From an uncultured Opitutaceae bacterium (GTDB lineage: Bacteria; Verrucomicrobiota; Verrucomicrobiia; Opitutales; Opitutaceae), in assembly GCA_951813085.1 (NCBI GenBank), contig OX638348.1, positions 4,473,627 through 4,537,626 on the forward strand: a stretch of 64,000 nucleotides of DNA, given 5' to 3'. The notes under the pieces were generated by a model. That model searched no databases and was not told where the DNA came from. It saw only the letters and a list, made by a program, of their open reading frames with translations. This document shows positions 5,847-64,000 of this stretch, piece after piece (position 1 is the first letter of the stretch; each line of letters starts with the position of its first letter). The position numbers were made by a program, and so were the translations under genes.

Positions 5847-5875
5847 ATTTGAACTGTTTGAATTGAAAGAGTAAC

Positions 5876-8332: not shown

Positions 8333-8383
8333 ATTCGTTCCGGTAGTGCATCGGTCAGCCCATCGGCATCTAGTATAGACAAG

Positions 8384-8419: not shown

Positions 8420-8440
8420 GGAAAATTATTGAAGGATCTA

Positions 8441-9003
8441 CTAGCTGGACGAACGCCTATGCGCGACGAACAGCCCAATCAAGCCAAGTCCGAGTAGCAG
8501 CAGGGTAGAGCCTGAGTCTGGAATGGATTTGTAATCTGCTCTGACATCCAACTTTGCCCAAGCGAGAGACAATTTCTTATACCACTGGCTTGATTCGTTG
8601 GTAATTGTGTAGTCCACGGCTCCTGTATCGGAAAGCGTTAGCAATGCGCTGCCGAGCACGGCACCGGATTCTGAAGCTCCACCAAGGAAAAATACGCCGA
8701 AACTTCCATCGGCGAAATCGTCAGACCCTATATTGATATCGTAGTATCGAGTTCCAAAGCCAGCAGCGCCTACTGCGAATCGAGCAACCGCGCTTACCAC
8801 GTATTCGTTCGATGAGTCGTACCCGACGTTGTCGTAAGCTCCACCATCCCAGTTGGTAATATCAAAGGTGCCTGTGTAAGAACCACCGTTGCCGTATATC
8901 CCTAAGCCGTCTTTATGGAAAATATCATAGTCGTTGTAGCTATTGATAGCGAACGTTGAGCCGGCAAGACCTAGGGTTAAGGCGAGTGTTAGTATTTTTT
9001 CAT
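8441..9003 (-). pseudogene. VPDSG-CTERM sorted surface protein, frameshifted near its start
   Basis: The C-terminus reads SIPDSGSTLLLLGLGLIGLF followed by VAHRRSSS: a PDSG motif, a hydrophobic helix and an Arg cluster, as in the verrucomicrobial VPDSG-CTERM exosortase signal. Upstream the frame extends back to a signal peptide if one A is added to the run of six after ATG at 9003: MKKILTLALTLGLAGSTFA. It then continues with INSYNDYDIFHKDGLGIYG and a Gly/Asp/Tyr-rich beta domain. Repaired length is about 187 residues. The protein would be exported, anchored and processed by an exosortase, possibly as an exopolysaccharide-associated surface protein. Partner exosortase genes are not in the window. 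The A6-run lesion is a typical homopolymer miscall. Confidence 0.75.
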
Positions 9004-9546
9004 TCGGAGTGGTTCGTAGCTTTCGAGAATTTTGCGAAGTGTTCTGATAAATTGAATGACGCTAGATTTTTGTCTTAGGTAGCAGAGTCTATGCCAATGC
9101 AATGCTAGATTTTTGAATCTCTACTTAATGCATTATCCAGCAAGTATTTATAAATTTCGACATTTTTGGAAATAATTCCCGCTTGGATTGAAAGTGTAAA
9201 GGATCCTGACACTAAAACTGCTCATGGAGTTAGGGTGTGCTGTAAGCTGTTGAACCTCGGACATTTAGGAAAGATTCTCATTAGTGTAAAATATCCCAAC
9301 AGTTTACGCTAATTCATAGTCTTCTTGTTTGGATAGGCGATTTCCGGTCGCAGCCGAATTTCAATTGCAATCCTGTATTGGATTGGATCGAAATTTGAAA
9401 CACGGCGGTACCCGCTTATATCGGGTATAAAATGACAAGAGGGAAATATAACATGATATCCAAACGGTTGGACTCCGGATCGTAGTTTGCTCCGTCATAA
9501 ACATTAAAGGTGGACAGGAGTCGTCTGGATTGCCAATTGAGAAGGG
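9004..9546. other. Non-coding interval between divergent genes
   Basis: AT-rich promoter region shared by the VPDSG-sorted gene (minus) and a sulfatase (plus). It contains two direct copies of GCTAGATTTTTG (9061-9072 and 9104-9115) and a long inverted repeat listed separately. No gene was recognised. Confidence 0.6.
9281..9312. promoter_or_regulatory. Inverted repeat, candidate operator upstream of a sulfatase
   Basis: Arms TTAGTGTAAA (9281-9290) and TTTACGCTAA (9303-9312) are complementary except for one pair, with a 12-base spacer. The arms are AT-rich and 32 bases overall, as for a dimeric regulator. It lies 235 bases before the sulfatase start at 9547. The binding protein is unknown. Confidence 0.4.
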
Positions 9547-11103: not shown

Positions 11104-11247
11104 AAAAGAACCTCTGCTGCCAAAAGCCTGTAACTAAAATCCCCCCTTGCGAGGTTTGGTTTGTAGAGCGACGCAATTTTCGCTAGTGGATGCGCGGTAG
11201 AGGCATCAATCACACTTCGCTCCCTTATCCCCCTCCTTAAATATACT

Positions 11248-12806
11248 ATGATAGCTACCCCAGCCATTCCACGCCCTTGGTTGCGCAACATTAACTTTAG
11301 AAGCTTGATGCGTATGTGTGTCGGGCCCGTCTTCGGAGTCTTGTATGTATCCATGGCGACCGCGTCGGATACCCCGCCCAATGTAGTGCTCCTGGTTTCT
11401 GACGATCAGGGATGGGGCGATGTGGGCTATCATGGCGGTTGAGATGGCAACGCCCAATATCGACAAGCTTGTGGAAGAAGGCATGGAGCTGAACCGCTTT
11501 TATACGTATCCGATTTGCTCGCCTACGCGTACGGCTCTCCTGACCGGGCATATTTCTATGCGCCACAGGGTATTTATGCCCTTCGATGCAGACTCTGGCG
11601 ACCACACCCTGACGCATGACGACCCACTCATGAACCAGGTATTCAAAGATGCCGGGTTATATGACCATGACCGCGGGCAAGTGGCATTTGGGCCATACGC
11701 ACGTGCGAGACTTTCCGATCAACCGTGGCTTTGATCACACGTACGGATCGCTGGAAGCCTTTCCGGACTACTGGACCCACATGGGTAGGGGAGGTACGAA
11801 AGATTGGGCCCGCGACGGGAAAACCGTTTTCGAGAACGGCTATATGACCGATCTGTTCGGTAACGAGATCAGTCGGTTGATCCGCGATCCATCGAAGCCG
11901 TTTTTTTCCTACGTAGCGTTCACGGCGCCTCATACCCCACTGCAAGCGCCGCAAGAGTACGTCGACAAGTACGCCCATATCGAGGACGAGGATCGCCGCA
12001 TCTACTGCGCTATGGTTGAGGTATTGGACGTGGCGATTGGCAATATCCTCAAGGTCATCGACGACGAGGGCATTCGCGACAACACCATCGTGATGTTCTT
12101 TTCAGACAATGGAGCGGGACCTGTGGGCGACAATGGAGGCTTCAGGGGTCGTAAGGGGCAACTGTACGAAGCCGGTACGCGCATGCCTGCGGTCATTCGG
12201 TGGCCGGGTAAGATCCCTGCTGGAGTCCGCAGCGAGCAACCGATTGCGGTGTACGACTTGTTTCCCACCTTCGTAGACGCCCTTGGCCTGGAGCCGAAGT
12301 TGAGATCGCCCTTCGATGGGGAAAGCGTTTGGGATTCCCTGCAATCCGTAAAGACCCGTGCGCGCAAAACCGACATCGTTATCGGAACGCAGTCAGGCTA
12401 CTCGGTTCATTCGGGCGAATACAAATTGGTGCACAACAATATAAACAAGAATGCGCCGGAGAACAGCCCGCCGGAAACGGTTGAACTCTTCAAGATTTAT
12501 GAGGATCCCAAAGAGACTACCAATGTGGCGGACGCGTATGCGGATGTCGTTGATAGGTTGATGGCCAACAACGCTGAATGGGCTGAATTAATTAGCAATG
12601 CGCCGTACCGCGCTCGAGGCGGCGGACGAGGAAATCGCCCTAGCGCCGGTAGAGCGGGAGGCGGCGGACGGCCCGGAGTCGATGCTGCAGGTGGAAGAGC
12701 GGGAGGTCGTCCTGGCGGCGCTCCCCGCGGCGGTGTTCGACCACCCCCGCAGCGTGATGCCAATGGGAACATTATTCATCTCCACGAAACCGTTCCGAGC
12801 GATTAG
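11248..12806 (+). pseudogene. Secreted sulfatase with two frameshifts, paralogue of the one at 32902-34521
   Basis: Three reading frames join into one sulfatase. The first covers the signal peptide (a start at 11308, MRMCVGPVFG, is also possible) and [20 protein letters not shown]. The frame changes near 11440 to [15 protein letters not shown] with the motif CSPTR, and again near 11660 to [15 protein letters not shown]. Removing one G from a GGG run repairs the second break. From [10 protein letters not shown] to the end it is near-identical in layout to 32902-34521 (ENGYMTDLFGNEISRLI, APHTPLQAPQEY). The C-terminus has a Gly/Arg/Pro-rich linker, then DANGNIIHLHETVPSD. It would be an arylsulfatase-type enzyme if intact; here broken or miscalled. 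Confidence 0.85.
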
Positions 12807-13044
12807 CTGCTTAGAGGCCGTTGCTGGCGGGAATGCGGCCTCCAGATTTTTTCGCGAAATGCGAGCGGCTGGGTCGTCATCGCTCTCGTTCCACAAATAC
12901 TTGCCACATCCCACCACTTAGTTTCTACCTTCACTCTGTAGATGTAACCGGCGATTGCCTTTCTCAGTCTTCTTTCGTGTCTACCGCATCTTAGTCCTCA
13001 AACCCGCGTCTCCGCGTCGTAACTCGCTTAATCAGGAACTCGTT

Positions 13045-14121
13045 TTGCCCTCAAGAAATTCTATTCCCCACTTAGTTGCATTAATTGCGCTCGGATTCCT
13101 CGCCGGATGTTCCGGGCCTTCCCAAGAGACGATCCGGTTGACGGTCGTGGATGGCTATCCGACTCAGTCGCTCTGGGTCAGGGAGTTCATCGATTACTAC
13201 ATTCCGGAAGTCGACAAGCGCTTAGCCGCTAAAGGGAGCTACAAGATTAGCTGGAATCAGGCGTGGGGCGGACAGATCGTCAAGACGCGCAATGTGCTTC
13301 CCGGACTCCAGAAAGGGCTCGGAGACATCGGGGTCGTGACCACCGTATTCCATCAGGACAAGGTGCCGATTCAAGCGATTGCGTATGTCACCCCATTCGT
13401 GACGACCGATCCTGAGCTCGTGGCTCGCACGGTCGACGAGATCGCCGCAAAATTCCCTGAGATGAAAGAGGCCTGGGAGAAGTACAACCAGGTCTACTTG
13501 ACCAATATGGTAGTCTTGGACAGCTACCAGTTGTTCTCGAAAGAACCCATTGGTGGCTTAGCCGATTTCAAGGGCCTGAAGATCAATGGGGCGGGCACGA
13601 ACCTGCGCTATCTTCATGGTCTAGGCGCTGCGGGAGTGGCGGGCAGCTTGGTGACTTACTTCCAGAATATCAATACGGGGGTCGTCGATGCCGCTATGAT
13701 CTGGCCCGAGGCTGCCACTTCGTTCAAGATGCACGAAGTGGCTTCCTACATGCTCCGAGCCGATATGGGCACCGTCAATTCGAAGGCCATCACGGTCAAT
13801 AGGCGGGCTTGGGAAAAATTGCCTGCGGATGTTCAGGAGGTCCTAGCTGAAACCGCTATCGACTATCGCGACCATGTCGCTAGGCTTGCGGTATCCAAAG
13901 GAGCGGAAAGCTTGAAGATTTTTGAAGATAACGGAGGAACCATCGCTACAATGTCTGCGGCGGAGCGCGAGCAATGGGCGAACAACATGCCCAATATCGC
14001 CAAGGAATGGGCGGATGGGCTCGAGGAAAAAGGGCTGCCGGGCCAAGAGATCTTGACGTTCTACATGGATACGATGCGGGCCAATGGGCAGAATATTTCC
14101 CGGCACTGGGACCGAGAGTAA
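13045..14121 (+). CDS. TRAP transporter solute-binding lipoprotein (DctP family)
   Basis: TTG at 13045 is preferred as start because AGGA lies 7 bases upstream and it gives a clean lipoprotein signal, IPHLVALIALGFLAGC, with Cys in the lipobox; an earlier TTG at 12955 would add an implausible leader. The mature protein has DctP features: TVVDGYPTQSLWVREF, SWNQAWGGQIVKTRNVLPG, GDIGVVTTVFHQ, LKINGAGTNLRYLHGLGA and YFQNINTGVVDAAMI. It binds a substrate, usually a carboxylate, in the periplasm and passes it to the two membrane subunits encoded next (spacing 6 and 9 bases). The adjacent intradiol dioxygenase suggests an aromatic acid or related carboxylate, which is inference. Confidence 0.9.
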   Translation: MPSRNSIPHLVALIALGFLAGCSGPSQETIRLTVVDGYPTQSLWVREFIDYYIPEVDKRLAAKGSYKISWNQAWGGQIVKTRNVLPGLQKGLGDIGVVTTVFHQDKVPIQAIAYVTPFVTTDPELVARTVDEIAAKFPEMKEAWEKYNQVYLTNMVVLDSYQLFSKEPIGGLADFKGLKINGAGTNLRYLHGLGAAGVAGSLVTYFQNINTGVVDAAMIWPEAATSFKMHEVASYMLRADMGTVNSKAITVNRRAWEKLPADVQEVLAETAIDYRDHVARLAVSKGAESLKIFEDNGGTIATMSAAEREQWANNMPNIAKEWADGLEEKGLPGQEILTFYMDTMRANGQNISRHWDRE

Positions 14122-14127
14122 GGCTTG

Positions 14128-14679
14128 ATGGAGAACGAAGCCCCTGCGCGACCAAACGGCTTGTTTGATCGGATACTGGAAATCGTCGTATCCAATCTAA
14201 ATAGCATTGGCTCTGTCTGGATTTTCGTGCTGACGCTGCTGATCAATGCAGACGCCTTCGGGCGGAAGCTTTTCCATTCGCCGATCGATGGCGTAAACGA
14301 GATCGTCGAACTGTCCATCGTAGGAATCGTCTTTCTGCAACTGGGCGATGCGACGCGCAAGGGACGATTGCCTCGATCCGACGGGCTGTTCAATATGATT
14401 GGAAAGCGATGGCCAAACTTCGGCCGATTCCATGCGGCTCTGTTCAATTTTTTGGGAGCAGTATTCATGGGCCTGATACTGTACGGGAGCGTTCCATTGT
14501 TTATCGAGTCTTGGGAATCGGACTTCTATGTTGGCGTAGAAGGCCTTTTCACGGCGCCCGTATGGCCGATCAAGCTGATCATTGTCATTGGATGCGCGGT
14601 CACGCTCCTGCAATTTCTCGTTTTCGTACGTCGCCACCTGACTAGGCCTAAAAGCATACCGGAGGACTCACTCTCGTAA
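14128..14679 (+). CDS. TRAP transporter small membrane subunit (DctQ family)
   Basis: 183 residues with four predicted membrane helices (around LNSIGSVWIFVLTLLINADAF, IVELSIVGIVFLQLG, FLGAVFMGLILYG and IKLIIVIGCAVTLLQFLVF). The loop DATRKGRLPRSDGLFNMIG between helices 2 and 3 is typical of DctQ. It starts with ATG at 14128, just after the binding protein, and precedes the large permease. It forms the transporter's accessory subunit in the inner membrane. Confidence 0.88.
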   Translation: MENEAPARPNGLFDRILEIVVSNLNSIGSVWIFVLTLLINADAFGRKLFHSPIDGVNEIVELSIVGIVFLQLGDATRKGRLPRSDGLFNMIGKRWPNFGRFHAALFNFLGAVFMGLILYGSVPLFIESWESDFYVGVEGLFTAPVWPIKLIIVIGCAVTLLQFLVFVRRHLTRPKSIPEDSLS

Positions 14680-14688
14680 AGAAGCAGG

Positions 14689-16005
14689 ATGACTGGCGTA
14701 GAAGTTGGCATAATCTCGGTCGGGTTGATCCTGATACTAATCTATACAGGACTGTATATACCTGTAGCCTTGGGCTTGGTGTCCTTCATAGGTGTCTGGA
14801 TATTGCGCGGGGATATCGAAGTGCCCATATTCCTACTTTCATTGGCGGCCGCAGATACCATCGCTGAACCGACCTTTGCCGTGGTGCCCTTATTCGCTCT
14901 GATGGGACTCCTGATAAGCGAAGCGGGCGTGGGCAGGGATATTTACGACGTATCCAATTTTATATTTCGTCGATTGAAGGGAGGTTTGGGAATTGCCACT
15001 GTCGTGGCGAATGCCATCTTTGCCTCCATTACTGGTTCGTCGATCGCCTCCGCCTCTGTATTCACCAAGGTTTCCATTCCGGAAATGAAACGCTTCGGCT
15101 ACAATCCTCGCTTTACGGTAGGCGTTGTCGCGGGAAGCTCCGTGCTGGGCATGCTGATTCCTCCGAGCGTGATGCTCATTCTCTACGCGATCATCACGGA
15201 GCAATCCGTAGGGCATATGTTTATCGCCGGCGTGATCCCGGGAATTCTGCTATCGGTTGCATTCGGCGTAGCGATCTTGTCCATGGCGACGTTTTTTCCG
15301 AAATACGTAATCGCGGACTCTTCTGAATCTACTGAAGATCTAGGACCTTCATTGGACGGGATGCAGATCTTTCGGCTGGTGCTACCCATATTGGCATTGG
15401 TGGGAATCGTCTTGGGCGGAATTTACACCGGTTGGTTCACGGCTACCGAAGCAGGAGCGGCTGGAGCTGTTGGCGCTTTGGTCGTGGCGCTGCTCAAGAA
15501 AAAGCTGAGCCTGAAAGGCCTTTGGAAAGTGCTCATTGAAACGGGTCACATCACGGCCTCCATCTTGCTGCTGTTGATTGCAGCTTCCATGTACAGTCGG
15601 ATGCTGGGAATGGCGGGCCTGCCGACGACCTTTAGCGAATGGATACAATCGCAAGAACTGGGATTCGTGGGCATCATGGTCATCTATGTGGTGATTTTGA
15701 TACTCATGGGTACGATTTTGGATACGGTATCCATTATCCTCATTATCGTGCCGCTCTTCCTGCCCATTTTGGAGCCCATGGATATTCATTTAGTCTGGTT
15801 CGGCATCGTTACCGTGATCGGGGCTGAGATTGGATTGCTGACGCCACCGTTAGGCGTATCTTGCTTCGTGATCCATAGTTCGTTGAATGATCCGGATATT
15901 TCGTTGACGGACATTTTTATTGGGGCGTTCCCCTTTGCGTTGATCATGTTGGCGATTCTCATCTTAATCATTGTTTTCCCCTCGCTTTCATTGGTCTTCG
16001 TCTGA
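14689..16005 (+). CDS. TRAP transporter large permease (DctM family)
   Basis: 438 residues, about 12 membrane helices, the catalytic sodium-coupled transport subunit. Family motifs seen: PLFALMGLLISEAGVGRDIY, NAIFASITGSSIASASVFT, RFTVGVVAGSSVLGMLIPPS, the TEAGAAGAVGAL segment, and EIGLLTPPLGVSCFV near the end. AGGATG start context after DctQ. Together with the two genes upstream it forms a complete TRAP system, followed after 31 bases by the dioxygenase gene, so probably one transcript. Confidence 0.92.
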   Translation: MTGVEVGIISVGLILILIYTGLYIPVALGLVSFIGVWILRGDIEVPIFLLSLAAADTIAEPTFAVVPLFALMGLLISEAGVGRDIYDVSNFIFRRLKGGLGIATVVANAIFASITGSSIASASVFTKVSIPEMKRFGYNPRFTVGVVAGSSVLGMLIPPSVMLILYAIITEQSVGHMFIAGVIPGILLSVAFGVAILSMATFFPKYVIADSSESTEDLGPSLDGMQIFRLVLPILALVGIVLGGIYTGWFTATEAGAAGAVGALVVALLKKKLSLKGLWKVLIETGHITASILLLLIAASMYSRMLGMAGLPTTFSEWIQSQELGFVGIMVIYVVILILMGTILDTVSIILIIVPLFLPILEPMDIHLVWFGIVTVIGAEIGLLTPPLGVSCFVIHSSLNDPDISLTDIFIGAFPFALIMLAILILIIVFPSLSLVFV

Positions 16006-50932: not shown

Positions 50933-51070
50933 GCAGGATTGATCGGATTGGACGTTAAGATACATTGGGCGTTGAAAAACAAGATTAGAGTTTGATGAAA
51001 TTTGGTAGATATCTATCTATTGTATTTTCTCAATTGCTCCGTGACCTCCGTGGTTAAAAAATCAATTTCT

Positions 51071-52611
51071 ATGAAATCCATATCGCGAATACAGCTTGTT
51101 TCTTTCTCATTATTCGCGATTTGGCAGTCAGCATTTGCCCAAGACGATACTCCCTACAATATCATCCTCATCGTGGCGGATGATATGGGATATGGGGAAG
51201 TGAGCGCTTTCCTTCCTGAGGGACGCTTCGAGACGCCTCGACTGGACCGGATGGCGGCCGAGGGAGCTATGCTCACGCGCTTCTATGTACCCACGCCTTA
51301 TTGCGCGCTTTCGCGGGGGACCTTTCTTACAGGGCGGTATCCGTTCCGCCACTCAGTAGTGGGCAATCCATCGCCCGAATCGGGCCAAAACAACTTTGGC
51401 CTGCCGCGTTCGGAGATCACAATAGCTGAATTGCTCCAGTCGAAAGGTTATGCGACCGCGGCTTTCGGCAAATGGCATCTCGGGCATCGCGATCCCTGGT
51501 TGCCCAGGTCGCAAGGCTTCGATGAATACTACGGCATTTTGTATTCGAATGACATGTACCCCGTGCAGCTGGTGCGAAATGAAGAAGTAGTCGAGTATCC
51601 GGTCGCCCAAGGGAAGCTCTCGCAACTCTATACGGATCTGACGATCAACTTTATCGAGGAAAACAAGGATCAGCCGTTTTTCGTGTATCTGCCGCATGCC
51701 ATGCCGCACAAACCCTTAGCGGTGTCGGACAATTTCTATACGCCTGAAACTCCCGACAATCTATACGAAGACGTGATTGCGGAGCTCGACCATTGCGTCG
51801 GGCAAGTATTGGATTTTTTGTTACGAAGCGAATTGGACCGGAAGACGCTTGTCGTGTTCACTTCCGACAATGGGCCCAATCAAGGGGGATCCACCGGCGG
51901 CTTGAGGGGAATGAAGGGCCGGGTCTGGGATGGGGGAATGCGTGTCCCGTTCATCGCCCGACTCCCCGGGGTGATTCCTCCCGGAGTGAAAACGCTCATC
52001 CGGCTGCCAGCGTGGATTTGCTTCCGACGTTTTGCGCCTTGGTCGGAATCGATGCGCCACGGGATCGAACCATCGATGGAGCCAATATCTTGCCCATGTT
52101 TAAGAGCTCAAATAATGCTAGTCCTAGTGAGGCAGTCTTTGGAATGAGCGGTCAAGATCTGAGCTGTATCTGGTTAGGCGAATGGAAGCTGCATGTGCTG
52201 GATCCGGGACGATCCGATATGCGCGGGCTGTCCGATCAGGAAGCGATCGATTGGATTGATCCCCGAGCGCCCAACGGCGTATCCATAATTTCCCCCTACG
52301 AGCAGGCGAAGGCTTACGAAATTCCCGGCTTGCTAACCGGAGATCCTCCCAAGCCTATGATGCTATTTAACCTCGATACGGATCCTGGAGAACAGCGTGA
52401 CCTAAGCGCCGAGCACCCCGAGGTGGTACAGCGTCTCAAGCAAAGTTTCGACGCGACCCATGCCGAGGTTCCTCACTACCCCGCCCCGAAATCAGACTAC
52501 TTGTTCGAGCCACCCGCCCGCGGCGAGAGCCGTCAGTTGATGCACTTGATAGGTGGGGAGCTACGCTACGATAAGATTCCCGCCCATCAGAAGCCACTAT
52601 TGGTGGAGTAG
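51071..52611 (+). pseudogene. Secreted arylsulfatase-type enzyme, frameshifted
   Basis: ATG at 51071: signal peptide (ISRIQLVSFSLFAIWQSAFA), YNIILIVADDMGYGEVSAF, formylglycine-type motif CALSR with Cys78 (Leu where Pro or Ala is usual), FGKWHLGHRD, YLPHAMPHKPLAVSDNF and VVFTSDNGPNQGGSTGGLRG. At 51991 one A is lost from a run of AAAA (VKTLIR in place of VKNAHPAA). The second frame gives AASVDLLPTFCALVGIDAPR and the rest to TAG 52611. Repaired length is about 513 residues. The A4 loss is a typical homopolymer error. The CALSR motif is unusual and could affect maturation. Confidence 0.82.
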
Positions 52612-52745: not shown

Positions 52746-53111
52746 ATGTCCTATTTAATCGATTTTTCGACTGCGACAAGCGACCAGATTGAAAAAGCGC
52801 TCTGTCAGCGCTTGGAGCAAATCCGGCTCTCACGTAATGTGCCCCAGGGAAGCCTTGCGGACGAGGCGGGCGTGTCGGTTCGAACGATTCGCAATCTAGA
52901 GAAGGGTGAGGGGGTTTCCTTTGATACGGCGCTGCGTGTAATGATTGCCTTGGGAGTTCAGCAGGCATTGGAGTCCTTGTTACCCGATCCAGCCATCCGG
53001 CCGGTAGAACGCGTTGAAGCACGAGCCGCGGAGCGCAAACGCGCATCGCCTCAAGCGACGAGAGAGAAGAAGGTATGGACTTGGGCGGACGGCGAGGACG
53101 ACGATGAATAA
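52746..53111 (+). CDS. hipB: HipB-like antitoxin, XRE-family regulator
   Basis: 121 residues. Helix-turn-helix in CQRLEQIRLSRNVPQGSLAD then EAGVSVRTIRNLEKGEGVSF, the XRE pattern. A charged, Arg/Glu-rich C-terminal tail ends WTWADGEDDDE. The stop overlaps the hipA start (ATGAATAA), so the two are translationally coupled. By analogy it binds its own promoter and, with HipA, represses the operon. Candidate operators lie just upstream. Confidence 0.85.
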   Translation: MSYLIDFSTATSDQIEKALCQRLEQIRLSRNVPQGSLADEAGVSVRTIRNLEKGEGVSFDTALRVMIALGVQQALESLLPDPAIRPVERVEARAAERKRASPQATREKKVWTWADGEDDDE

Positions 53112-54408
53112 CAACGCCAAAGTCATTCTATGGGGCAATGTCATAGGAGCCGTAACTTGGCTAGATGATCGTGGCGTTGGCGTGTTCCAGTATCACCCCG
53201 ATTTCTTGGGAAGCGGCATAGAGCTGTCGCCCTTGACGATGCCTCTTCGTGATTTTCCCTATGAGTTCCCGGCATTGCCGCAGGATACGTTTAAAGGGCT
53301 GCCAAGTATGCTCGCTGACGCGCTTCCGGACAAGTACGGTAACGCCATCATTGACGAGTGGTTGGCGTCGCAGGGTCGGACTGCGTCCAGCTTTCATCCG
53401 GTTGAGCGTCTTTGCTATATCGGAAGCCGTGGCATGGGCGCCTTGGAGTTTGAACCGGCGACCATGGGGATCCCGAAAGAAACTCAAGACTTGGAAATTG
53501 CAAAACTGGTCGAGCTTGCCGATCAGGTTCTTGACCAGCGGAAACGCCTTGGCGGGGTCTTTACGGGCGAGGACGACACGCAAGTCATCGAAGATATATT
53601 GAGGGTCGGCACGTCTGCAGGTGGCGCCAGAGCCAAGGCAATCCTCGCATGGAACCCGAGTACTGGAGCCTTTTGTTCGGGTCAAGTTGATAGCGACGAT
53701 GCGTTCGAGCACTGGCTCATGAAGTTCGATGGAGTGTCCAATAATCGGGATAAGGAACTCGCGGACCCTCAAGGATATGGTAAAATTGAATACGCCTACT
53801 ACCTCATGGCGGTTGCAGCCGGAATAAAAATGAATGATTGTCGTTTGCACTTCGAAGGCGGTCGCAGCCACTTCATGACTAAACGTTTTGATCGAACCGC
53901 GAAAGGCGGCAGACGGCACATGCAAACCTTAGGGGCGATCGCGCATTACGATTACAACCAACCGGCCAGCTATTCGTATGAACAAGCGATTCAGGTAATG
54001 AAGCGACTGAAATTGCCTCGCGAAGATTTGGAGCAGCAAGTATTGAGAGCATTCTTCAACGTGATCGGCAGGAACCAGGATGACCACGTTAAGAACATCG
54101 CGTTCCTTATGAATCGCAGAGGTGAATGGTCGCTTTCACCTGCATATGATGTGACTTACTCCTATGATCCCAAAGGAGAATGGACAAGCCGGCACCAGAT
54201 GAGTGTGAACGGCAAGCGCGACGCGTTTTCCAGAGACGATCTCATCAGTCTCGCCAGCCAGGCGGGGGTCAAGAAGAAACCCGCTACCAACATGCTAGAT
54301 CAGGTGATATCAGTAGTTGAGAAATGGGAACACTTCGCAAATCGAGCCGAAGTTCCCGAAAAGCGCGCCGAACAAATAAAAAGAGCGCATCGAGTCGATC
54401 TTAGTTAG
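53104..54408 (+). CDS. hipA: HipA-like serine/threonine kinase toxin
   Basis: 434 residues from ATG 53104 (an upstream frame to 53014 is a shadow of hipB). HipA-N part: VILWGNVIGAVTWLDDRGV, QYHPDFLGSGIELSPLTM. Kinase domain: Gly-rich loop VGTSAGGARAKAILAWN, WLMKFDGVSNN (ATP lysine region), catalytic loop VIGRNQDDHVKNIAFLM with Asp, and the metal Asp in SPAYDVTYSY. HipA toxins phosphorylate tRNA synthetases (GltX in E. coli) and cause dormancy. The full-size kinase and matching HipB suggest an active module. Its edge next to the defence operon is typical. Confidence 0.88.
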   Translation: MNNNAKVILWGNVIGAVTWLDDRGVGVFQYHPDFLGSGIELSPLTMPLRDFPYEFPALPQDTFKGLPSMLADALPDKYGNAIIDEWLASQGRTASSFHPVERLCYIGSRGMGALEFEPATMGIPKETQDLEIAKLVELADQVLDQRKRLGGVFTGEDDTQVIEDILRVGTSAGGARAKAILAWNPSTGAFCSGQVDSDDAFEHWLMKFDGVSNNRDKELADPQGYGKIEYAYYLMAVAAGIKMNDCRLHFEGGRSHFMTKRFDRTAKGGRRHMQTLGAIAHYDYNQPASYSYEQAIQVMKRLKLPREDLEQQVLRAFFNVIGRNQDDHVKNIAFLMNRRGEWSLSPAYDVTYSYDPKGEWTSRHQMSVNGKRDAFSRDDLISLASQAGVKKKPATNMLDQVISVVEKWEHFANRAEVPEKRAEQIKRAHRVDLS

Positions 54409-55189: not shown

Positions 55190-55224
55190 AGCACTTTTTA
55201 GACAGTTCAGGAATGGTAACTGGT

Positions 55225-55711
55225 TGGGACCCCGCGAACTAGCCCACTTTTGATGAGGTGATTTTCGTCGATCAACGAAAGGGACATCATCGATGAAAAA
55301 GACAAGACGCGCGACCGAGCAGATAATCCGCATACTGAGGGAGGCCGACACGGGGCTTCGGACCGAGGGGATCTGCCGCAGGCGCAGCATCAGCTCGCAG
55401 AGCTTCTACCGTTGGAAGAGCAAGTACGGAGGCATGGATCTGAAGGAGGCTCAGCGCCTCCGCGACCTGGAGAAGGAGAACACCGAGCTCAAGAAGCTGC
55501 TTGCCGACCAGCTGCTCAAGACCAAGGCCCTGGAGATCGCGCTGGGGAAAAACCTCTGAGCCCGGAGCGCCAGCGCGGGGTTGCGGCGAAGGTCCAGTCC
55601 GCGCTGTCGCGTTCCGGGAGAGCCGTTTGCCGGTGGCTGGGGATCAGCCGCTCGCCGCTTCGCTATCGCCCGAAGCCCAAGCCCGAGGGGAAGCGCTTGC
55701 TGGAGTCGGAG
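55225..55711 (+). mobile_element. Truncated IS3-family insertion sequence
   Basis: Contains a full orfA and only the first 50 or so codons of orfB before the sequence passes into DUF4391 coding sequence near 55703-55715. The right end is missing. The left boundary is estimated from the start of conserved non-coding sequence (TGGTTGGGACCCCGCG near 55223). No pair of terminal repeats can be shown. Confidence 0.6.
55293..55559 (+). CDS. IS3-family transposase OrfA (IS2/IS407-type)
   Basis: 88 residues. Helix-turn-helix (TEQIIRILREADTGLRTEGI, CRRRSISSQSFYRWKSKYGG) followed by a leucine-zipper stretch (LRDLEKENTELKKLLADQLL). The end, LGKNL, lies over a GGGGAAAAACC run, where ribosomes can slip back one base into orfB. 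OrfA alone binds DNA but does not transpose. Intact, but without a complete orfB. Confidence 0.85.
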   Translation: MKKTRRATEQIIRILREADTGLRTEGICRRRSISSQSFYRWKSKYGGMDLKEAQRLRDLEKENTELKKLLADQLLKTKALEIALGKNL

Positions 55712-56278
55712 ATCGTCTGGCAATACAAACTTGCGCCAGAAACCATCAACCTTAGCGCCACCAAATCGATTCCAGAGATACAGATATTCCGAATCAAACT
55801 TCGAGGGGCCGATTTGAATAGAGAGTTGGATGAGGTTGTCTTGCGAGCAATCGACAGAGCAATTGCGTTCCCGATCATTTTCGAACTGACCCAGGCAGGT
55901 AAGCGCAAAGCTATTGCGTCATATAAACGCCCTAGTGAAGCCGATAACACGAAATGGGTCGTTAGCGAGTATTTCGGAACAGAGTGGGAAGTGGAAGACG
56001 GACCTCGACAACCTCTCCCTTCTGCCCTGAATCTTGGTGCGCTCTATGACAAACTTCTCAATGCATTGATTCCGGCGACGACCGGAATTGAAGAGCCCAT
56101 CGTGAAGCGTGTTGAGCGCATGGAAGCGATCCGGGCGAAGCAGCGCGAGGCGGATCGCATTAAGGCTCGCCTTGCTCGAGAAAAGCAATTCAACAAACGT
56201 GTTGCGATAAACGCCGAGCTGCGGGAAGTGACGAAGCAGCTGAAACACCTTGGCGCGACTGTCACGGCTTTGGATTAA
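55556..56278 (+). pseudogene. DUF4391 protein fused to the start of IS3 OrfB
   Basis: The frame begins as IS3 OrfB (LSPERQRGVAAKVQSALS, CRWLGISRSPLRYRPKPK) and continues at about 55712 as DUF4391: IVWQYKLAPETINLSATKSI, IQIFRIKLRGADLNRELDEV, FELTQAGKRKAIASYKRPSE, then SEYFGTEWEVEDGPRQPLPS and a C-terminal coiled helix (KQREADRIKARLAREKQFNK). About the first 40 residues of DUF4391 are lost. DUF4391 is a recurrent partner of Mod and Res of certain type III systems; role unknown. Whether the hybrid is made depends on frameshifting at orfA. It is followed by the mod gene 8 bases later. Confidence 0.75.
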
Positions 56279-56286
56279 GAAGACTG

Positions 56287-58201
56287 GTGAAAACGATGGA
56301 AAAACTGAAAATGCATAGCCGTGACCTTACCGATGAGAACGTGGCGAAAATTCGTGAACTGTTTCCGGGGAGCGTGACCGAGGCCAAGGACGAAGACGGC
56401 AACCTTCGGTATGTCGTCGATTTTGATCAGCTAAAACAGGAGTTGAGTGACCATATCGTTGAGGGGCCTCAGGAGCGGTACCAGCTCAATTGGCCGGGGA
56501 AACGCGAAGCTCTCCTAACCGCCAATGCACCCATTGCTAAAACGCTCCGTCCATCCCGCAAAGAAAGTGTTAACTTTGATTCGACCCAAAATCTCTTTAT
56601 TGAGGGAGACAATCTTGAAGCCCTAAAGCTTCTCCAAGAGACATATCTTGGCAAGATCAAGATGATTTATATCGACCCGCCTTATAACACCGGCCACGAT
56701 TTCGTTTACGAGGATAATTTCGCTGAAAGTACGGATGAATTTTTTCAAAGATCAAATCAGACGGATGAATTGGGCAATCGATTGGTTGCCAATCCAGACA
56801 GCAATGGAAGATTTCACTCTGATTGGCTGTCAATGATGTATGCCAGGTTAAGGTTGTCTAGGTCGTTGGTCTCCGACGTTGGTCTCCGACGTTGGTCTGA
56901 TTTTCATTAGCATCGATGATGGTGAGGTGGCAAACCTAAGACGATGTTGTGATGAAATATTTGGTGAGAACAATTTCGTGGCTCAAATAGCTTGGGAAAA
57001 AAGGTATACGAGGTCAAACAACGCAAAGCGGTTTTACTCTTTAAAAGACACGATCCTAGTATTTCGAAAATCCGAAGCTCTCGACATAATAAAAGAAAAG
57101 AGGACTGATAAAGCGGACGCCAACTACCGAAATCCTGACGATGATCCCAAAGGGCCTTGGATGACATCGTCATATGTGAATCCTGCAACCAAAGAGGCTA
57201 GGCCCAATCTAGTTTACGGAATACGAAATCCTCATACCGACGAAGTTGTTCATCATCCCACCCATGCTTGGAAGTTCAGTGAAGCTGAGCAAAAAAATCA
57301 TGCGGCGGAAAACAGACTATGGTGGGGGGCAGACGGATCGGCTGAGTATCCGCGCCTTAAACTATATCTATCGGAACAAACCGACGGAATGGTTCCAATT
57401 GACGTATGGGACTATAAGACGTCTGGAACAACCGACGAAGGCGGAACAGAAATCAAGGAGTTATTTGGCTCTGCTGTTTTCGACACCGCAAAACCAACAA
57501 AACTAATAAGACGAATGCTAGGTATTGCAACGTCGCCATCCAGCAGCGATATAGTTCTAGATTTTTTCGCAGGTTCTTGTAGTACTGCCGTCGCTGTTAT
57601 GAAGGAAAATGCAACTGATGGCGGACAGAGAAGATCGATTTCAATTCAAATCGCTGAACCATGTGTCGAAGGTTCTATAGCCCGAAGTTCAGGTTTCGAT
57701 ACCATTTCCGAAATTTCAATGGAGCGGATTCGACGATCTGGAAAAAAGGTTCTTGAAAGTGAATGCCATGAAAACTGGAACAAGGACGTTGGCTTCCGTG
57801 TCCTGAAGATCGACACGTCCAATATGGCAGACGTGTATTACACACCGGGCGAAGTGAAGCAAGAAGACCTGCTGGCTGCCGTTGATAACATTAAGCCAGG
57901 GCGCGACAATCCTGAGGATCTGTTGTTCCAGGTGCTCGTCGATTGGGGCGTTGACCTAACCCTACCCATCCGCAGCGAGAGCGTGCAGGGCAAGACCGTC
58001 TTCTTCGTCAATGAAGAGCCCTACGACCTAATCGCTTGTTTCGATACCGGCGTCACGGAAGAACTCGTGAAAGAGCTCGCGAAGCATGAGCCAATGCGCG
58101 TCGTTTTCAGGGACAATGGTTTCGTCTCCGATTCCGTGAAGATCAATGTCGACCAGGTATTCCGGCAGCTTTCCCCTGCAACTGACGTTAAGTCGATTTA
58201 G
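56287..58201 (+). pseudogene. mod: Type III restriction-modification methyltransferase (Mod), frame broken by a 13-bp duplication
   Basis: Beta-class adenine methyltransferase. The start is GTG 56287 or ATG 56296. Motif IV DPPYNTGHDFVYEDNF comes first, motif I as LDFFAGSCSTAVAVMKENAT near the end, as in Mod subunits. The frame shifts at 56878, where a 13-base unit is present twice; removal of one copy joins SLVSDVG to LIFISIDDGEVANLRRCCDE and restores a protein of about 633 residues. Mod recognises the target DNA and methylates adenine; with Res it restricts foreign DNA. With the duplication only a short, truncated product is made. Confidence 0.88.
56865..56899 (+). repeat. Tandem 13-bp repeat inside mod
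   Basis: GTTGGTCTCCGAC at 56865-56877 and again at 56878-56890, followed by GTTGGTCTG, a partial third copy. One extra copy changes the reading frame (13 is not a multiple of 3). Confidence 0.85.
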
Positions 58202-58211
58202 GGGGTAAGGA

Positions 58212-61200
58212 ATGAAACTCAAATTCAAAGTTCAGCCATATCAAACAAACGCAGTAGATGCGGTGGTCGATTGTTTCGCCGGTCAACCGATGAGCAGCGG
58301 GCTACGCTATCGCATTGATCCTGGCAAGGCGGTCCAGATGGCGGCTTTTGAAGAGGGCTTCAAGAACGAGGACATACGACTGACAGACGGGCAACTGCTG
58401 ACCAATATCCAAAGCGTGCAAAAGCGCCAGAACCTAACACCCATGCGATCTCTGGATGATTTCACGGAGGTTGACCGTAAAGGCCAAGTCAAGCCGAAGG
58501 CCAAGAGTTACAAGCCAGGGGCAAAACTCAATCTCGACATCGAGATGGAGACCGGCACCGGCAAGACCTATTGCTACATCAAGACTATCTTCGAGATGAA
58601 CAAGCGATATGGCTGGTCGAAATTTATTGTCATGGTGCCGAGTATCGCTATTCGCGAAGGTGTTCATAAGTCTTTCCAGATCACAGCGGACCATTTCACA
58701 GAGAGTTATGGAAAGAAAGCACGCTTCTTCATTTACAATTCGAAGCGCCTGCATGAGCTGGAGAGTTTCTCTTCCGACGCCGGGATCAACGTGATGATCA
58801 TCAATATCCAGGCGTTCAATGCACGGGGTGCTGACAATCGCCGGATATATGAAGAGCTTGACGACTTCCAATCGCGTCGCCCGATTGACGTGATTAGCAG
58901 CAACCGACCGATCCTCATTCTGGATGAACCACAGAAGATGGAGGGCAAAGCAACACTCGATGCGTTGCCAAAGTTCAATCCGCTGATGATCCTGCGATAT
59001 TCAGCAACCCACAGAACCAACCACCTCAAAGTGCATCGGCTCGATGCTCTGGATGCCTACAACCAGAAACTCGTGAAGAAGATTGCCGTTCGGGGAATCC
59101 AGACGCGCGGACGCGCGGGTACCAACGCTTATCTCTACCTCGAAGGGATCGACATCTCAAAGAAGGCCCCGGTCGCGCGGATCGAGATGGAAGTGAAGCA
59201 AAAATCTGGAGAGATCAAACGGCAACTGCGGCGGCTTGAGTTTGGCCGTGATCTTTTCGCTGTGTCCGAAGGGCTCGACCAATATCGCGACTTCACTATC
59301 TCGCAGATCGACTACAACAACGATTCCGTAGAATTCACGAACGGCCTTGTGCTGCAAGCAGGTGAGGCAACCGGCGATGTGAATGAAAAGGATATCCGGC
59401 GTATTCAAATCCGCGAGACGATCAAAGCTCACTTCGATAAGGAGAAACAACTTTTCTCCCAAGGGGTCAAAGTGCTTTCTCTGTTCTTTATCGACGAGGT
59501 GGTGAAATACCGAGATTATGACCAGGGCGACGATAAAGGCGATTATGCGCGCGTCTTCGAGGAAGAGTATGGTCAATTGAAAGAGGAGTATCTCTCAGAG
59601 CTCGCAATCGACAATGAGGAATACCGGAAATACTTAGCGGGCATAGAGGAGGACGCCACTCATAACGGATACTTTGCTATCGACAAGAAAACGAACCGGA
59701 TGAAAGACCCGAAGGCGGCAGTTCGAGGTGAAAATGTAGGGCTTTCAGATGACGTAGACGCGTATGACTTGATCCTGAAAGACAAAGAGCGACTCCTAGC
59801 GTTTGACGAACCAACTCGCTTCATTTTTTCGCATTCGGCTCTCCGTGAGGGCTGGGATAATCCTAACGTCTTTGTCATGTGTATGCTAAAGCATAGCAAC
59901 AACACTATATCCCGGCGCCAGGAGGTTGGGCGTGGATTGCGCCTGTCCGTTGACCAGCATGGTGAGCGCATGGACCTACCCGCTGTCGTTCACGACATCA
60001 ATGTTCTGACCGTCGTTGCAAGCGAGAGCTACAAAGATTTTGTCTCAGGGCTTCAAACCGAAATTGCTGAGACACTGTCTGCCCGTCCTCGAAAGGCCGA
60101 TGAGGAGTACTTTACCGGCAAAGTGATTGAGACTTCTGATGGATCGGTCGAAGTTACGCCCCAAATGGCAAAGCAGATATACCGTTATCTGTTGAGGCAC
60201 GATTACACGGACGATGATGACAGCATCACGGATACCTATCACATGGCCAAGGATGCTGGCGAGCTGGCCGAGCTTCCAGAAGAGTTAGAATCCTATGCTG
60301 ATCAGATTGTTGATCTAATCGACAGCGTCTTCGATGACAGTAAATTGCCGAAGATTGATGATGGACGGAAGCCGAAAACGAACCCGCTCAACGACAATTT
60401 TGGGAAAAAGGAGTTTCAGGAGCTCTGGTCCCGGATTAATCGCAAAGCGGTGTATCGCGTGGACTTTGAGTCAAACGAGCTGATCAAAAAAGCGATTAGT
60501 GCGTTGGACAGCCAACTGCGTGTGACGCCACTCCAGTACACCGTGCAGACTGGCGAGCAACATGCCGCAGTGATGGACGAGCAATTAAACACGGGAGAGA
60601 GTTTCAAACTGACCGGCACCACCACGGAAAAGGGTGGCCCTGTCCATTCCGATGTGACCTATGACCTGATCGGTAAAGTCGCTGAGAATGCTCATCTAAC
60701 CCGCAAGACGATAGCGAAGATATTAGCTGGTATACAGCCAGCGATATTTGAGCAGTTCCGAATGAACCCGGAACATTTCATCAGCGAAGCATCACGTCTG
60801 ATAAGCGAGCAGAAAGCGACAGCAATCATTGAGCAACTTTCCTACGATGAGGTGGAGGATCGCTTTGACACCGATATCTTCACGGCGGCACAGACAGGCC
60901 AGGATTTCTCACGTGCGACCGACAAACTCAATAACCATGTCTACGACTATTGCGTGACGGATTCCGATGTTGAGCGGCGTTTCGTCGAAGAGCTCGATAC
61001 GAGCACGGAGGTGGTTGTGTACGCAAAGCTGCCGGGTGGGTTCCTAATTCCCACACCAGTTGGCGACTATAACCCCGATTGGGCCATTTCGTTTAAGCAT
61101 GGCAGTGTTAAACACATCTATTTCGTCGCGGAGACCAAGGGCTCCATGTCCTCAATGAAGCTGCGCGAGATAGAGAAAACCAAGATTGAGTGCGCACGGA

Positions 61201-61310
61201 AATTCTTCGCCGAGCTAAACCAACAAATTGCAGCGGAAAAGATTAAATACGACGTAGTCACTGACTACGCGAAGTTGATGGACTTGGTGAACGAGGTGGC
61301 AGCGCAGTGA
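58212..61310 (+). CDS. res: Type III restriction endonuclease subunit (Res)
   Basis: 1032 residues, start supported by GGTAAGGA 3 bases before ATG. SF2 helicase parts: Walker A ETGTGKT (residues 113-119), the motif II box LILDEPQKM with DEPQ near residue 237, [12 protein letters not shown] (motif III-like SAT), and [13 protein letters not shown] (motif VI). C-terminal nuclease: PD in [12 protein letters not shown] and ETK in [10 protein letters not shown] near residues 955-975, a PD-(D/E)xK core. Res translocates on DNA and cuts when two sites meet, only together with Mod. The frame is intact, unlike its partner. Confidence 0.92.
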
Positions 61311-61311
61311 T

Positions 61312-62581
61312 ATGGAATTTTTGAAGGGAAGCCGAGACGAATTCGAAAAGCTCAAGGACAAAGATTCTTGGAAAGACAAAGCGGACATCACCCAGCGGCA
61401 GATGGCGGAAGTCTTTGGGGCCAAGAATCTGTCCTTCTTAATGGGATCGGGTTGTTCTTCGCTGAGAAATGGCGACGATGAGCTAGGAATTTCGACGATG
61501 ACGTTCCTGGCAGAAGAATTTCAGTCGCTGCTCGCCACGGAGCCCGCCGATAACGGAGGAGAGGTCTTTGTCAGCCCTGCACAAAAGACCGAACTCCACG
61601 ACAAGCTCGGCATTAATCTTTCCGCCGATGACGTGAAGGGCAATCTTGAGCGGATGATGGAGGTTCTCATCAACGCCCATCATTTCTGCAAAACAAGTGA
61701 CAAAGGCGAACTGAGCTCGGTTGCCACTCTGGTTGATCAGATTATTGCAGGTATTAAAAAGTTCGTCTTGTACAAGTGCACTACAGGCCCCTTTTCCAAT
61801 GGTGATGAAAGCGTCGTTGCGGACTATCGGCGTTTTTACCAGTCCCTGGCGACGCGTTCGCGCGGGCTTGCCCCGCCTTGGGTATTCACGACCAATTACG
61901 ATCTCTTCAATGAATGTGCGATGGATCGCTCGGGCATTCCGTACTCTAACGGCTTCTCTGGAACCGTAGAGCGCAGGTTCAATCAGGCTTGCACTGGCAG
62001 AACAGTTGGACATCACCTCGCGCCGTTGGGCTGCCGTCGATGGATTTGTACACTTCTGCAAGTTACACGGCTCCGTCAATTGGACTGAAGAGGAAAAAGG
62101 TCTCTTCCCCATCCGAGAATCGCACACACCGCTTGATCCATCCACAGATCGAGTCATGATTTACCCGACCCCGTCAAAACAGACGGCGAGCTTTGGATCA
62201 CCATACTCAGATATGTTCCGCGAATTCCAGAGGCAGGTTGTTCAGGATCAGAGCGTCCTGATTATCATGGGGTACAGCTTTGGAGACGAGCACGTCAACA
62301 ACATCATTTTTCAAGGACTTACCTTGCCCAGCTTCAGACTTATAGTCTTCATTGACCACGGAACGAACGACATCACGCGTGAGCTCGCGGCACTTCGTGA
62401 TCCACGCGTCTGGTTCGTTTGGGGCGACGGCAAGAAAGCTGACCAGAAAGCCCATTACTTCGATGGCATCGTCAATCATCTTATGCCCACCAGTGCAGAT
62501 CAAAAGATTGACCAGACCATAGAAGAAGCGTTGCAGACGCTTCTTGTCAAGCAGCAGGGCAGAGCAAATGGCGAGGGATGA
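61312..62581 (+). pseudogene. SIR2-family NAD-processing defence protein, frameshifted
   Basis: ATG at 61312, one base after the res stop. SIR2 fold: LSFLMGSGCSS (G-x-G-x-S nucleotide loop), WVFTTNYDLFNECAMD (T-T-N-Y-D), catalytic His in FCKLHGSVNW, and LIIMGYSFGDEHVNNII. Between FNQA and LALAEQLDITSRRWA one base is missing near 61990 (one base added gives GCN CTT GCA). Repaired length is about 423 residues. Paired with HerA, such proteins form an anti-phage system: they deplete NAD or act as nucleases. Its stop overlaps the HerA start by 14 bases. Confidence 0.85.
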
Positions 62582-64000
62582 CGCAAGCCGCGCCATAGGA
62601 AAGATTGTCAGCGTGTCGGCTGACCGTTTGGTTGTTGAGCTGCATAGGGGCAGCGATAACTTCACTATCGTCGGTTTCGACGACATCCACTATGTCGCAA
62701 CACTTGGTTCCTATCTTATGGTTGCTATGCAGGCCGAGTATGTTATTCTTGAGGTTGTAGGCCTCCGCGAAAAAGACAGCACACCCTCGGATGCAAACCA
62801 TACCGAAATGGACAAAGCCTCTTCCGCCAAGTTCCTTGACGTGGTTCCCGTAGGTTCTATGCCGATGCAAGGTGGAAGCTTTCGGTTTGGAGTCTCGACA
62901 TTCCCATCACTTTACGCGGACGCCCTCTATGCGCGCGACGAAGATCTTGATCGTATCTTCAATGTTGAACAGCCGTCTGAGCTCGAAACAAAAAAAGACG
63001 CTAGTGGTACAGACCAGCAGGGTAGTGTTCCCCATACCATAGAAATTGGCACTTTCGCCGTCTTCAAAGGCTATCCCGTTAAGTCGAGGCTTGATGAATT
63101 GTTTGGTGGTCATGTAGCCGTACTTGGAAACACCGGAAGCGGAAAATCATGCACTGTTGCATCAATCTTCCAGTCCGTATTTATGAAGCCCGAGGCTTTT
63201 GCAGCACTGGGTGCAGCCTTCGTGATCTTCGACGTGAACGGTGAATATCGGCGGGCGCTCGACAATGTGCCTGGCTGGATTAAGTCTTGCTATCTCAAGG
63301 CAAGTGAACCGGATATGCCGGTCCCTGACGTTTCCGAGAAAAGGCAAGGATCGGAGATCAAGGATAGATTTAGGCTCCCCCACTGGTTCATGAGTGTCGA
63401 TGAATGGGCTTTGTTGTTGAGGGCGAGCGAGAAGTCACAGCTTCCAGCACTCCGTACCGCTCTCGGTCTGACCACTTTGTTCCCAGAAGCACCTAGAGGC
63501 GATGTAGCTGAAAATAAACTCAAAAAAATCCGCAATCATGTCTCAGCAAAGATTATTCTTTCGATTTTATATAGCGATGCCAGTTCTCCGAGCAAAGTGG
63601 ATCGCATCCTGGCTCTGTTAAATACATTCTCTACTGATAAAATCTCGAAAGATATAGTATCTCCAGGTCTCTCTATCTATTTCGGTCAGTTTAGGGATGG
63701 CCCAAGGCATGATACGTCTAAAAAGTATGAAGAGCTTTTGGAGCGTCTGAACAGGCACGTACAAGATGAACCTGTTCTTCCGGGCTACGCGAATACACCC
63801 TTTTCGTTCGAGCGGCTGAAAGCCGCGCTCGACCTTGCACTCTTCTACGAGGAAGCGAACGGTAATAAGCAAATTCGAGAATACTGCTCGCAGTTGGTTA
63901 CACGCCTTAAGTCAGTGATAGATAACCCTGATTATGAGTTTCTACGAGCTGATATTGACGCGCTACAAGCCCATGACCGTGAACCGACGCATTATGTGGA
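62568..64000 (+). CDS. herA: HerA-like ATPase (DUF87), partial at the right edge
   Basis: Open to the end of the window (477 codons seen). Begins MARDDASRAIGKIVSVSADR, the HAS-barrel-type start, then Walker A GNTGSGKSCTVAS, Walker B AAFVIFDVNGEYRRAL. HerA proteins form hexamers that move DNA; with SIR2 partners they assemble a large defence complex. The start ATG 62568 lies within the SIR2 gene, 14 bases before its stop, so translation is coupled. The remaining 3' part (arginine finger and C-terminal brace) lies outside the window. Confidence 0.85.
   Translation, partial: MARDDASRAIGKIVSVSADRLVVELHRGSDNFTIVGFDDIHYVATLGSYLMVAMQAEYVILEVVGLREKDSTPSDANHTEMDKASSAKFLDVVPVGSMPMQGGSFRFGVSTFPSLYADALYARDEDLDRIFNVEQPSELETKKDASGTDQQGSVPHTIEIGTFAVFKGYPVKSRLDELFGGHVAVLGNTGSGKSCTVASIFQSVFMKPEAFAALGAAFVIFDVNGEYRRALDNVPGWIKSCYLKASEPDMPVPDVSEKRQGSEIKDRFRLPHWFMSVDEWALLLRASEKSQLPALRTALGLTTLFPEAPRGDVAENKLKKIRNHVSAKIILSILYSDASSPSKVDRILALLNTFSTDKISKDIVSPGLSIYFGQFRDGPRHDTSKKYEELLERLNRHVQDEPVLPGYANTPFSFERLKAALDLALFYEEANGNKQIREYCSQLVTRLKSVIDNPDYEFLRADIDALQAHDREPTHYV

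Follow-up and report, generated by a model that had tools for sequence, protein, structure and literature searches.

Restriction–modification (RM) systems that carry their own suicide back-ups have been debated at least since 2012, with PrrC as a well-studied example, and the parts of PMC3506569 consulted state that type I and type III RM loci carry interchangeable suicide genes, Sir2 being named among them, and propose a coupling of immunity with suicide. The SIR2–HerA pair (Nezha, GAO_19) is presented, in the sections of PMC11559045 consulted, as a defence that depletes nicotinamide adenine dinucleotide (NAD) and that protects with the rest of its island deleted. Moreover, in S. thermophilus, SIR2/HerA pairs of the GAO_19 type lie either downstream of R/M systems or between them (PMC11514479, in part), and bacteriophage exclusion (BREX) systems recruit back-up effectors (PMC12839542, in part). 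Here, a window of 64,000 nucleotides from an uncultured Opitutaceae bacterium (GenBank assembly GCA_951813085.1, contig OX638348.1, positions 4,473,627 to 4,537,626 of the forward strand) was analysed, near the end of which DUF4391, mod, res, sir2 and herA follow one another, joining a type III RM unit to SIR2–HerA. The locus is probably a copy, acquired horizontally and now in decay, of a mobile defence operon with a layered design, composed of SNF2–DUF4391–Mod–Res and an exchangeable effector module, which is here SIR2–HerA.

The initial annotation had proposed this five-gene order on a single strand, with gaps of 8, 10 and 1 bp and a final overlap of 14 bp, and the families, the order and the spacings were all recovered from the open reading frame (ORF) list, its coordinates and profile matches. 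In particular, the window proteins matched the Pfam families DUF4391 (PF14335, E 4.6e-42), N6_N4_Mtase, ResIII with RE_endonuc, SIR2_2 and DUF87 (HerA being queried as its first 644 residues), while the gene pieces matched MTase_III, REase_III, SIR2 and HerA in PADLOC. The five genes are presumably transcribed together; a promoter scan gave no plus-strand promoter-like match between 60363 and 64000, and the promoter-like sites it found were no more numerous than in shuffled sequences (6 vs. 7.3). However, the genes are not all whole: the window copy is broken in three places, since DUF4391 is truncated at its 5′ end and mod and sir2 are each divided into two ORFs, and only res and herA are intact, the latter ending 625 bp beyond the window. 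Res combines the ResIII helicase with RE_endonuc (PF04851, PF19778 and PDLC03647), and HerA has a Walker A motif (GNTGSGKS) and the HerA/FtsK core (PF01935; PDLC04102 at 899 bits).

Features of the operon and its 5′ border, with gene junctions, in window coordinates
Feature	Position	Strand	Basis
Truncated insertion sequence, replacing the 5′ end of the operon	55221..55717	+	First ~497 bp of a ~1250-bp element
DUF4391 remnant, own start missing, N-terminus lost	55718..56278	+	PF14335 profile positions 26–232
DUF4391 stop to mod start, 8 bp	56278 to 56287	+	ORF coordinates
mod, N-terminal fragment (DPPY present, FxGxx absent)	56287..56910	+	MTase_III PDLC03634 positions 2–192; motif check
13-bp tandem repeat, 2.7 copies, shifting the mod frame	56864..56898	+	Tandem Repeats Finder, 100% match
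mod, C-terminal fragment, other frame (FxGxx present)	56879..58201	+	PDLC03634 positions 188–621; motif check
mod stop to res start, 10 bp	58201 to 58212	+	ORF coordinates
res, type III restriction subunit, intact (GTGKT, DEPQ, ETKG)	58212..61310	+	PDLC03647, 1121 bits, residues 1–1027; RE_endonuc PF19778
res stop to sir2 ATG, 1 bp	61310 to 61312	+	ORF coordinates
sir2, N-terminal fragment (TTNYD present)	61312..62088	+	PADLOC SIR2 PDLC04090, E 1e-70; motif check
11-bp deletion in sir2 relative to L004, L017, L006 and L010	61983..61984	+	Alignment
sir2, C-terminal fragment, other frame (LHGS present)	62006..62581	+	PADLOC SIR2 PDLC04084, E 1.1e-89; PF13289; motif check
herA ATG to sir2 stop, 14-bp overlap	62568 to 62581	+	ORF coordinates
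herA, intact, overrunning the window to L003:10626 (equivalent to 64625)	62568..64000	+	PADLOC HerA PDLC04102, E 3.5e-271 (first 644 residues); GNTGSGKS

The gene order is not confined to this contig; such a confinement is what the initial annotation had named as fatal to its proposal. A search of genome contigs with the window HerA returned 15 loci (one of which, L018, covers only 34 residues of the match), and DUF4391–Mod–Res–SIR2–HerA was found intact in two metagenome-assembled genomes (MAGs), from Halioglobus (L004) and Henriciella (L017). Both carry upstream a gene for an SNF2-type helicase of 964–965 amino acids that overlaps the DUF4391 start, the fuller operon being SNF2 helicase–DUF4391–Mod–Res–SIR2–HerA. 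The sir2 gene starts 4 bp after res in L004, which also carries a DUF2779 gene, and overlaps res by 4 bp in L017. Furthermore, a divergent version, SNF2–Mod–GmrSD–Res–SIR2–HerA, with the GmrSD gene added, was present in L058, 27–39% identical over the aligned pieces and with a 4-bp res/sir2 overlap. The combined layout is thus real and recurrent in L004, L017 and the divergent L058, but the window copy is not intact and its two halves do not always go together, as seen from the damage, the missing SNF2 gene and the other contexts of SIR2–HerA. No close copy of the SNF2 gene was found in the genome of the window, where the best match had 28% identity. Moreover, no close herA was found in 56 relatives of this genome, 10 of them of the same genus (four had weak partial matches), so the operon was probably gained horizontally. 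HerA proteins 85–88% identical to that of the window were found in one Halioglobus and six alphaproteobacterial records, and a search of viral contigs gave no confirmed HerA relative.

The damage at the 5′ end lies at the border with a truncated insertion sequence, whose orfA/orfB layout resembles that of the IS3 family. The DUF4391 frame is fused to this element at 55717/55718 and starts inside it, so that the domain begins only at position 26 of 232 of PF14335; the L004 homologue aligns to the remnant from its residue 41, and a 1-bp difference falls at the extreme edge of the compared stretch. A total of 39 matches to the insertion sequence were found in the same genome, including the window copy, with 40 of 56 candidates scored. 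In all seven of the other copies examined, the alignment to the window copy ends at 55717, and some of these copies have ~1249 bp in common with each other.

Regarding mod, the DPPY and FxGxx motifs that a type III Mod has in one protein lie in two frames in the window, whereas mod is a single frame in L004 and L017, and the extra copy of the 13-bp repeat is absent from both relatives in the alignment. Several gaps of 1–4 bp in the variable middle of mod relative to L004 were taken for alignment noise. Similarly, TTNYD and HGS, which a SIR2 protein has in one frame, are separated into two frames in the window, while sir2 is one frame with both motifs in L004 and one frame in L017. The indels of res, herA and DUF2779 relative to L004 were all multiples of three. 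Given that no close SNF2 gene is left, that Mod and SIR2 are each split between two key motifs and that only Res and HerA are whole, the operon in this genome is very probably inactive, dead at Mod and SIR2.

Type III mod genes are known to vary in phase, and the 13-bp tandem repeat could contract by slippage. Moreover, a sulfatase gene in the window and a second sir2 gene in the same genome (see below) are also split, with breaks near short A-runs as judged by eye, so the assembly may contain indel errors. In this way the operon might still function, with frame breaks that stem from sequencing errors, from a reversible switch or from programmed frameshifting. This is nevertheless very improbable: neither lesion, the 13-bp duplication or the 11-bp deletion, is a homopolymer change, the deletion in sir2 cannot be reversed by slippage, the relatives encode mod and sir2 each in one frame, and DUF4391 is truncated with no close SNF2 gene left. 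Programmed frameshifting or phase switching of mod and sir2 was discarded as the leading explanation for two of these reasons, the single-frame relatives and the irreversible deletion. The sulfatase gene itself (window 51002–52611) lies in two frames, with the Sulfatase and Sulfatase_C matches in different frames near an AAAA run by eye, from either decay or an assembly indel.

Beyond the type III operons, SIR2–HerA has the character of an interchangeable module: its close versions stand alone or end MmeI-type operons, and distant ones occur in type I operons. The adjacent same-strand arrangement of sir2 and herA, which overlap by 14 bp in the window, was also found in L004, L006, L017 and others. 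Among the 14 loci of the HerA search with sir2 in view, two were type III (L004 and L017), four were MmeI-type (L005, L006, L007 and L009) and eight were others; once these other contexts appeared, the notion of SIR2–HerA and type III RM as a fixed pair was abandoned. In the MmeI-type loci, SIR2–HerA comes last in an operon that also encodes an MmeI-type enzyme, a helicase and a GIY-YIG-type protein, these being assigned by Pfam for the proteins of L005 and L006 and by similarity for those of L007 and L009. The remaining eight loci showed no similarity to the RM query genes, a search that may have missed RM genes unlike the queries or on the other strand; one of them, L015, is too short a contig (3.3 kb) for a judgement. 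A neighbour from each of L008, L012 and L013, the three of these eight so scanned in PADLOC, gave no RM match, and L008 retains, by eye, bases like the end of the GIY-YIG gene before sir2. Furthermore, no same-strand ORF of at least 80 amino acids lies within 150 bp upstream of sir2 in L010–L014 and L016.

As a separate observation, SIR2–HerA of L006 is preceded, in L006:1538–8742, by genes for an MmeI-type enzyme, a 395-amino-acid protein without a Pfam match, a helicase and a T5orf172/GIY-YIG protein. The 395-amino-acid gene is common to L005, L006 and L009, and L007 had no match to it; the MmeI-type operon of the former three is possibly an undescribed RM type.

In a HerA family profile search (E 1e-60, at most three candidates scored per genome), at least 10 of the 385 genomes in one class and at least 4 of the 369 in another had a match. 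Two of these 14 genomes are those of L006 and L004, the centres of the samples, and the loci of the other 12 were fetched. They comprised the type III locus L058, the orders hsdR–hsdM–hsdS–sir2–herA (L062) and hsdM–sir2–herA–hsdS–hsdR (L064), a HerA fragment only (L061), and eight loci with no RM gene adjoining sir2 by similarity search, complemented by Pfam on the neighbours in L053, L057, L059 and L063. Two of these loci deserve separate mention: in L064:414–10279 the pair stands within the type I operon, between hsdM and hsdS–hsdR, which recalls the placement of prrC with hsd genes, and in L053:6851–9196 an AbiEii-family gene adjoins the pair with zero gap.

These contexts bear on whether SIR2–HerA is obligately coupled to restriction in the style of PrrC and type I RM, that is, kept inactive or set off according to the state of the RM complex, for example by Res bound to or moving on DNA, or by a phage protein that inhibits Mod/Res. 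The close res–sir2 junctions (1 bp in the window, 4 bp in L004, 4-bp overlaps in L017 and L058), the positions inside and after type I operons in L064 and L062, and the PrrC precedent with the 2012 hypothesis (PMC3506569, in part) favour such a coupling. However, the module stands beside type I, MmeI-type and type III units alike, the six loci mentioned above have no such ORF directly upstream of sir2, and the Nezha SIR2–HerA protects with all the other island genes deleted, as stated in the part of PMC11559045 consulted. Obligate coupling is therefore regarded as unlikely. Since the module is found next to three RM types and also where no RM partner was detected, we think that the two halves of the operon are layered and not obligately coupled.

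The movement of the module was also visible in divergence. The proportion of synonymous differences (pS) between the window and L004 was 0.83 for res, 0.34 and 0.36 for the two parts of sir2, 0.46 for herA and 0.67 for DUF2779. With 150-bp bins, DNA identity was mostly 66–85% in res (one bin of 89% near its 3′ end), mostly 79–95% in sir2–herA (two bins of 63 and 69%) and 67–81% in DUF2779, thus rising at the 3′ end of res and dropping after herA, while no such step was found in the same bins between the window and L017. Because pS drops from res to sir2 between the window and Halioglobus, the SIR2–HerA module must have moved independently of res. In the HerA tree (26 rows), whose deep branches are long and unsure, the type III locus L017 joins four MmeI-type HerA proteins and two without an RM partner, apart from the window and L004 (100/98). 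In the Res tree (29 rows), the window Res is sister to that of L114 (95/92), an operon with an AAA ATPase module after res in place of SIR2–HerA, and the L058 Res lies far off. Closely related Res units have thus exchanged their effector, and distant type III units acquired SIR2–HerA on more than one occasion.

What follows res was surveyed through a Res family search of two classes (E 1e-100, up to two candidates scored per genome), with matches in 14 of the 385 genomes of the first and 25 of the 369 of the second. Loci were examined from 26 of these 39 genomes (24 fetched, plus L058 and L004), the other 13 all scoring below 760 bits, and, with L125 and L133 ending inside res, 24 loci were assessable. 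A known or candidate non-RM defence module adjoined res on the same strand within 100 bp in eight of the 24, namely SIR2–HerA (L004 and L058), DRT3a/b (L111), PDC-S46 (L112), a PDC-S06-type ATPase (L114), Gabija (L123), Ppl (L124) and Dsr1 (L128); as L004 was the centre of its Res sample, 7 of 23 is the fairer count. In three further loci a different same-strand ORF lay within 100 bp after res, encoding an FAD-binding enzyme (L126), SNF2 (L132) or a protein of 123 amino acids with no PADLOC match at 1e-20 (L116). Among four chosen plasmid loci, L135 had a PDC-S06-type ATPase 67 bp after res and the other three had no such gene.

For the control, 30 flanking genes were searched in PADLOC at 1e-20, the output of which counts families and not proteins, and one protein matching type III Mod families was set aside, leaving 29 genes. 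The non-RM names among them were PDC-S14, WYL, Cas3c and RmrA; a direct scan of 9 of the 30 genes traced all the PDC-S14 matches to a single gene of L121 and RmrA to a single gene of L114. Between three and five of the 29 genes match, and four was the number used. As a separate observation, the PDC-S14 candidate defence gene (L121:11207–12097) lies on the same strand 579 bp past a type III res.

Two results weigh against the proposal of a defence operon with an effector module at its end: 16 of the 24 assessable type III loci of the window's Res family have no recognised effector adjoining res, and adjacency is a weak sign by itself, since 42 of 119 flanking ORF pairs are likewise close and on the same strand. 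The latter figure also favours a passive clustering, in which defence genes accumulate in islands and the 3′ end of the operon is a harmless landing site, so that RM and SIR2–HerA would have no joint function. The independent movement of the module from res points the same way, as does the per-locus excess of defence modules after res, which was not significant (7 of 23 vs. ~4 of 29 flanking genes, p 0.18; 8 of 24 with L004, p 0.11). In contrast, when counted per same-strand ORF within 100 bp of the res stop, 7 of 10 (8 of 11 with L004) were known or candidate defence modules against ~4 of 29 flanking genes (p 0.002 and 0.0007, respectively), a contrast picked after seeing the data, and the order recurs at the great divergence of L058. 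Passive clustering is considered improbable, and the res 3′ end as an effector slot is suggestive, not proven. In its widest form, and only tentatively, the 3′ end of SNF2–DUF4391–Mod–Res might be an exchangeable slot for SIR2–HerA, Gabija, DRT3, Ppl, Dsr1 or an AAA ATPase, each of them a fallback that can be replaced and that the restriction complex may help to trigger; SIR2–HerA would likewise be a plug-in common to operons of type I, MmeI-type and type III.

Under the favoured explanation of a layered operon, Mod of the intact relatives would methylate host DNA and Res with Mod would cut unmodified phage DNA, while SIR2–HerA, made from the end of the same operon, would deplete NAD once infection proceeds. 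SIR2–HerA would thereby be a co-expressed fallback with its own trigger, restriction acting first. This predicted division of labour is drawn from the similarity of SIR2 and HerA to solved complexes (sequence matches to 8yhx/8yho and 8j4u), the published NAD depletion and stand-alone protection (PMC11559045) and the modularity described above.

On the 3′ side of herA lie a DUF2779-like gene, the L004 homologue of which matches PF11074, and a tRNA-Leu ~230 bp past it; two tRNAs were the only Rfam matches in L003. No attachment site is claimed, because the tRNA-Leu region had only chance-level matches in the window (best E 0.79). Immediately upstream of the operon, at 52746–54408, are helix-turn-helix and HipA-type genes resembling a HipB/HipA toxin–antitoxin pair.

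The same genome holds two other type III loci. The second and divergent one (L065:2936–15452; C1:1843435–1855951) comprises SNF2–Mod–Res, an SNase-like gene, a C-terminal DUF2779 remnant (33% over 57 residues) and sir2–herA. Its sir2 lies in two frames with the break beside an A-run by eye, possibly a sequencing error, and for this reason a second broken sir2 in this genome is put forward only weakly. The third (L146, C1:1950000–1966000, reverse strand 5127–15883) has three tandem mod genes before one full res, the first two each followed by a copy of about the first 30–50 res codons. The mod proteins are 56–67% identical, with longer shared DNA stretches of 86–94%, and the locus has the appearance of an array of mod cassettes that would serve to switch specificity. 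Moreover, L128 (genome G499, reverse strand 1865–7504), with four tandem mod fragments before res and DNA repeats 71–79% identical, is a possible further mod array.

No description of the SNF2–DUF4391–Mod–Res–SIR2–HerA operon was found in open-licence PubMed Central, preprints excluded, among the best 30 of 805 and the best 15 of 48 results where lists were long, nor in the parts of PMC12322248 and PMC10952713 consulted. The coupling is here only deduced, and as an idea it was already published in 2012. With the immunity–suicide coupling of PrrC and PrrI, the locus shares the general idea, while this gene set, the exchange between RM types and the divergence step at the borders are not described in the consulted parts of PMC3506569. 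SIR2–HerA (Nezha, GAO_19) is alike in its adjacent sir2 and herA, in the sequence match to solved complexes and in the TTNYD and HGS motifs of the intact L004 protein, whose active-site role is given in part by PMC11559045 and in part presumed. However, it is described in the sections consulted as a two-gene system, whereas here it closes a type III RM operon on the 3′ side, with sir2 broken in the window. The S. thermophilus GAO_19 pairs belong to another species, and the part of PMC11514479 consulted claims no single operon with a type III unit, the pairs having been cloned and tested without it. The BREX back-up effectors are similar in that auxiliary effectors are added to a restriction-like operon (PMC12839542, in part), but that operon is BREX and not type III RM, and Sir2 has no occurrence in the text of PMC12839542. 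The operons form a natural set: behind a restriction unit of one kind stand various known effectors, and a single effector pair accompanies RM systems of three types. Also close are the annotated SNF2–DUF4391–Mod–Res operons of plasmids NC_016108.1 and NZ_CP101235.1, with the same families and order and with Res 70% and 68% identical to that of the window, respectively; the latter has no SIR2–HerA after res, and the former has a different ATPase set there. Compared with these plasmid operons, the window lacks SNF2 and has mod and DUF4391 broken, and it adds to the set a case of decay, in which Mod and SIR2 are broken while HerA and Res are kept.

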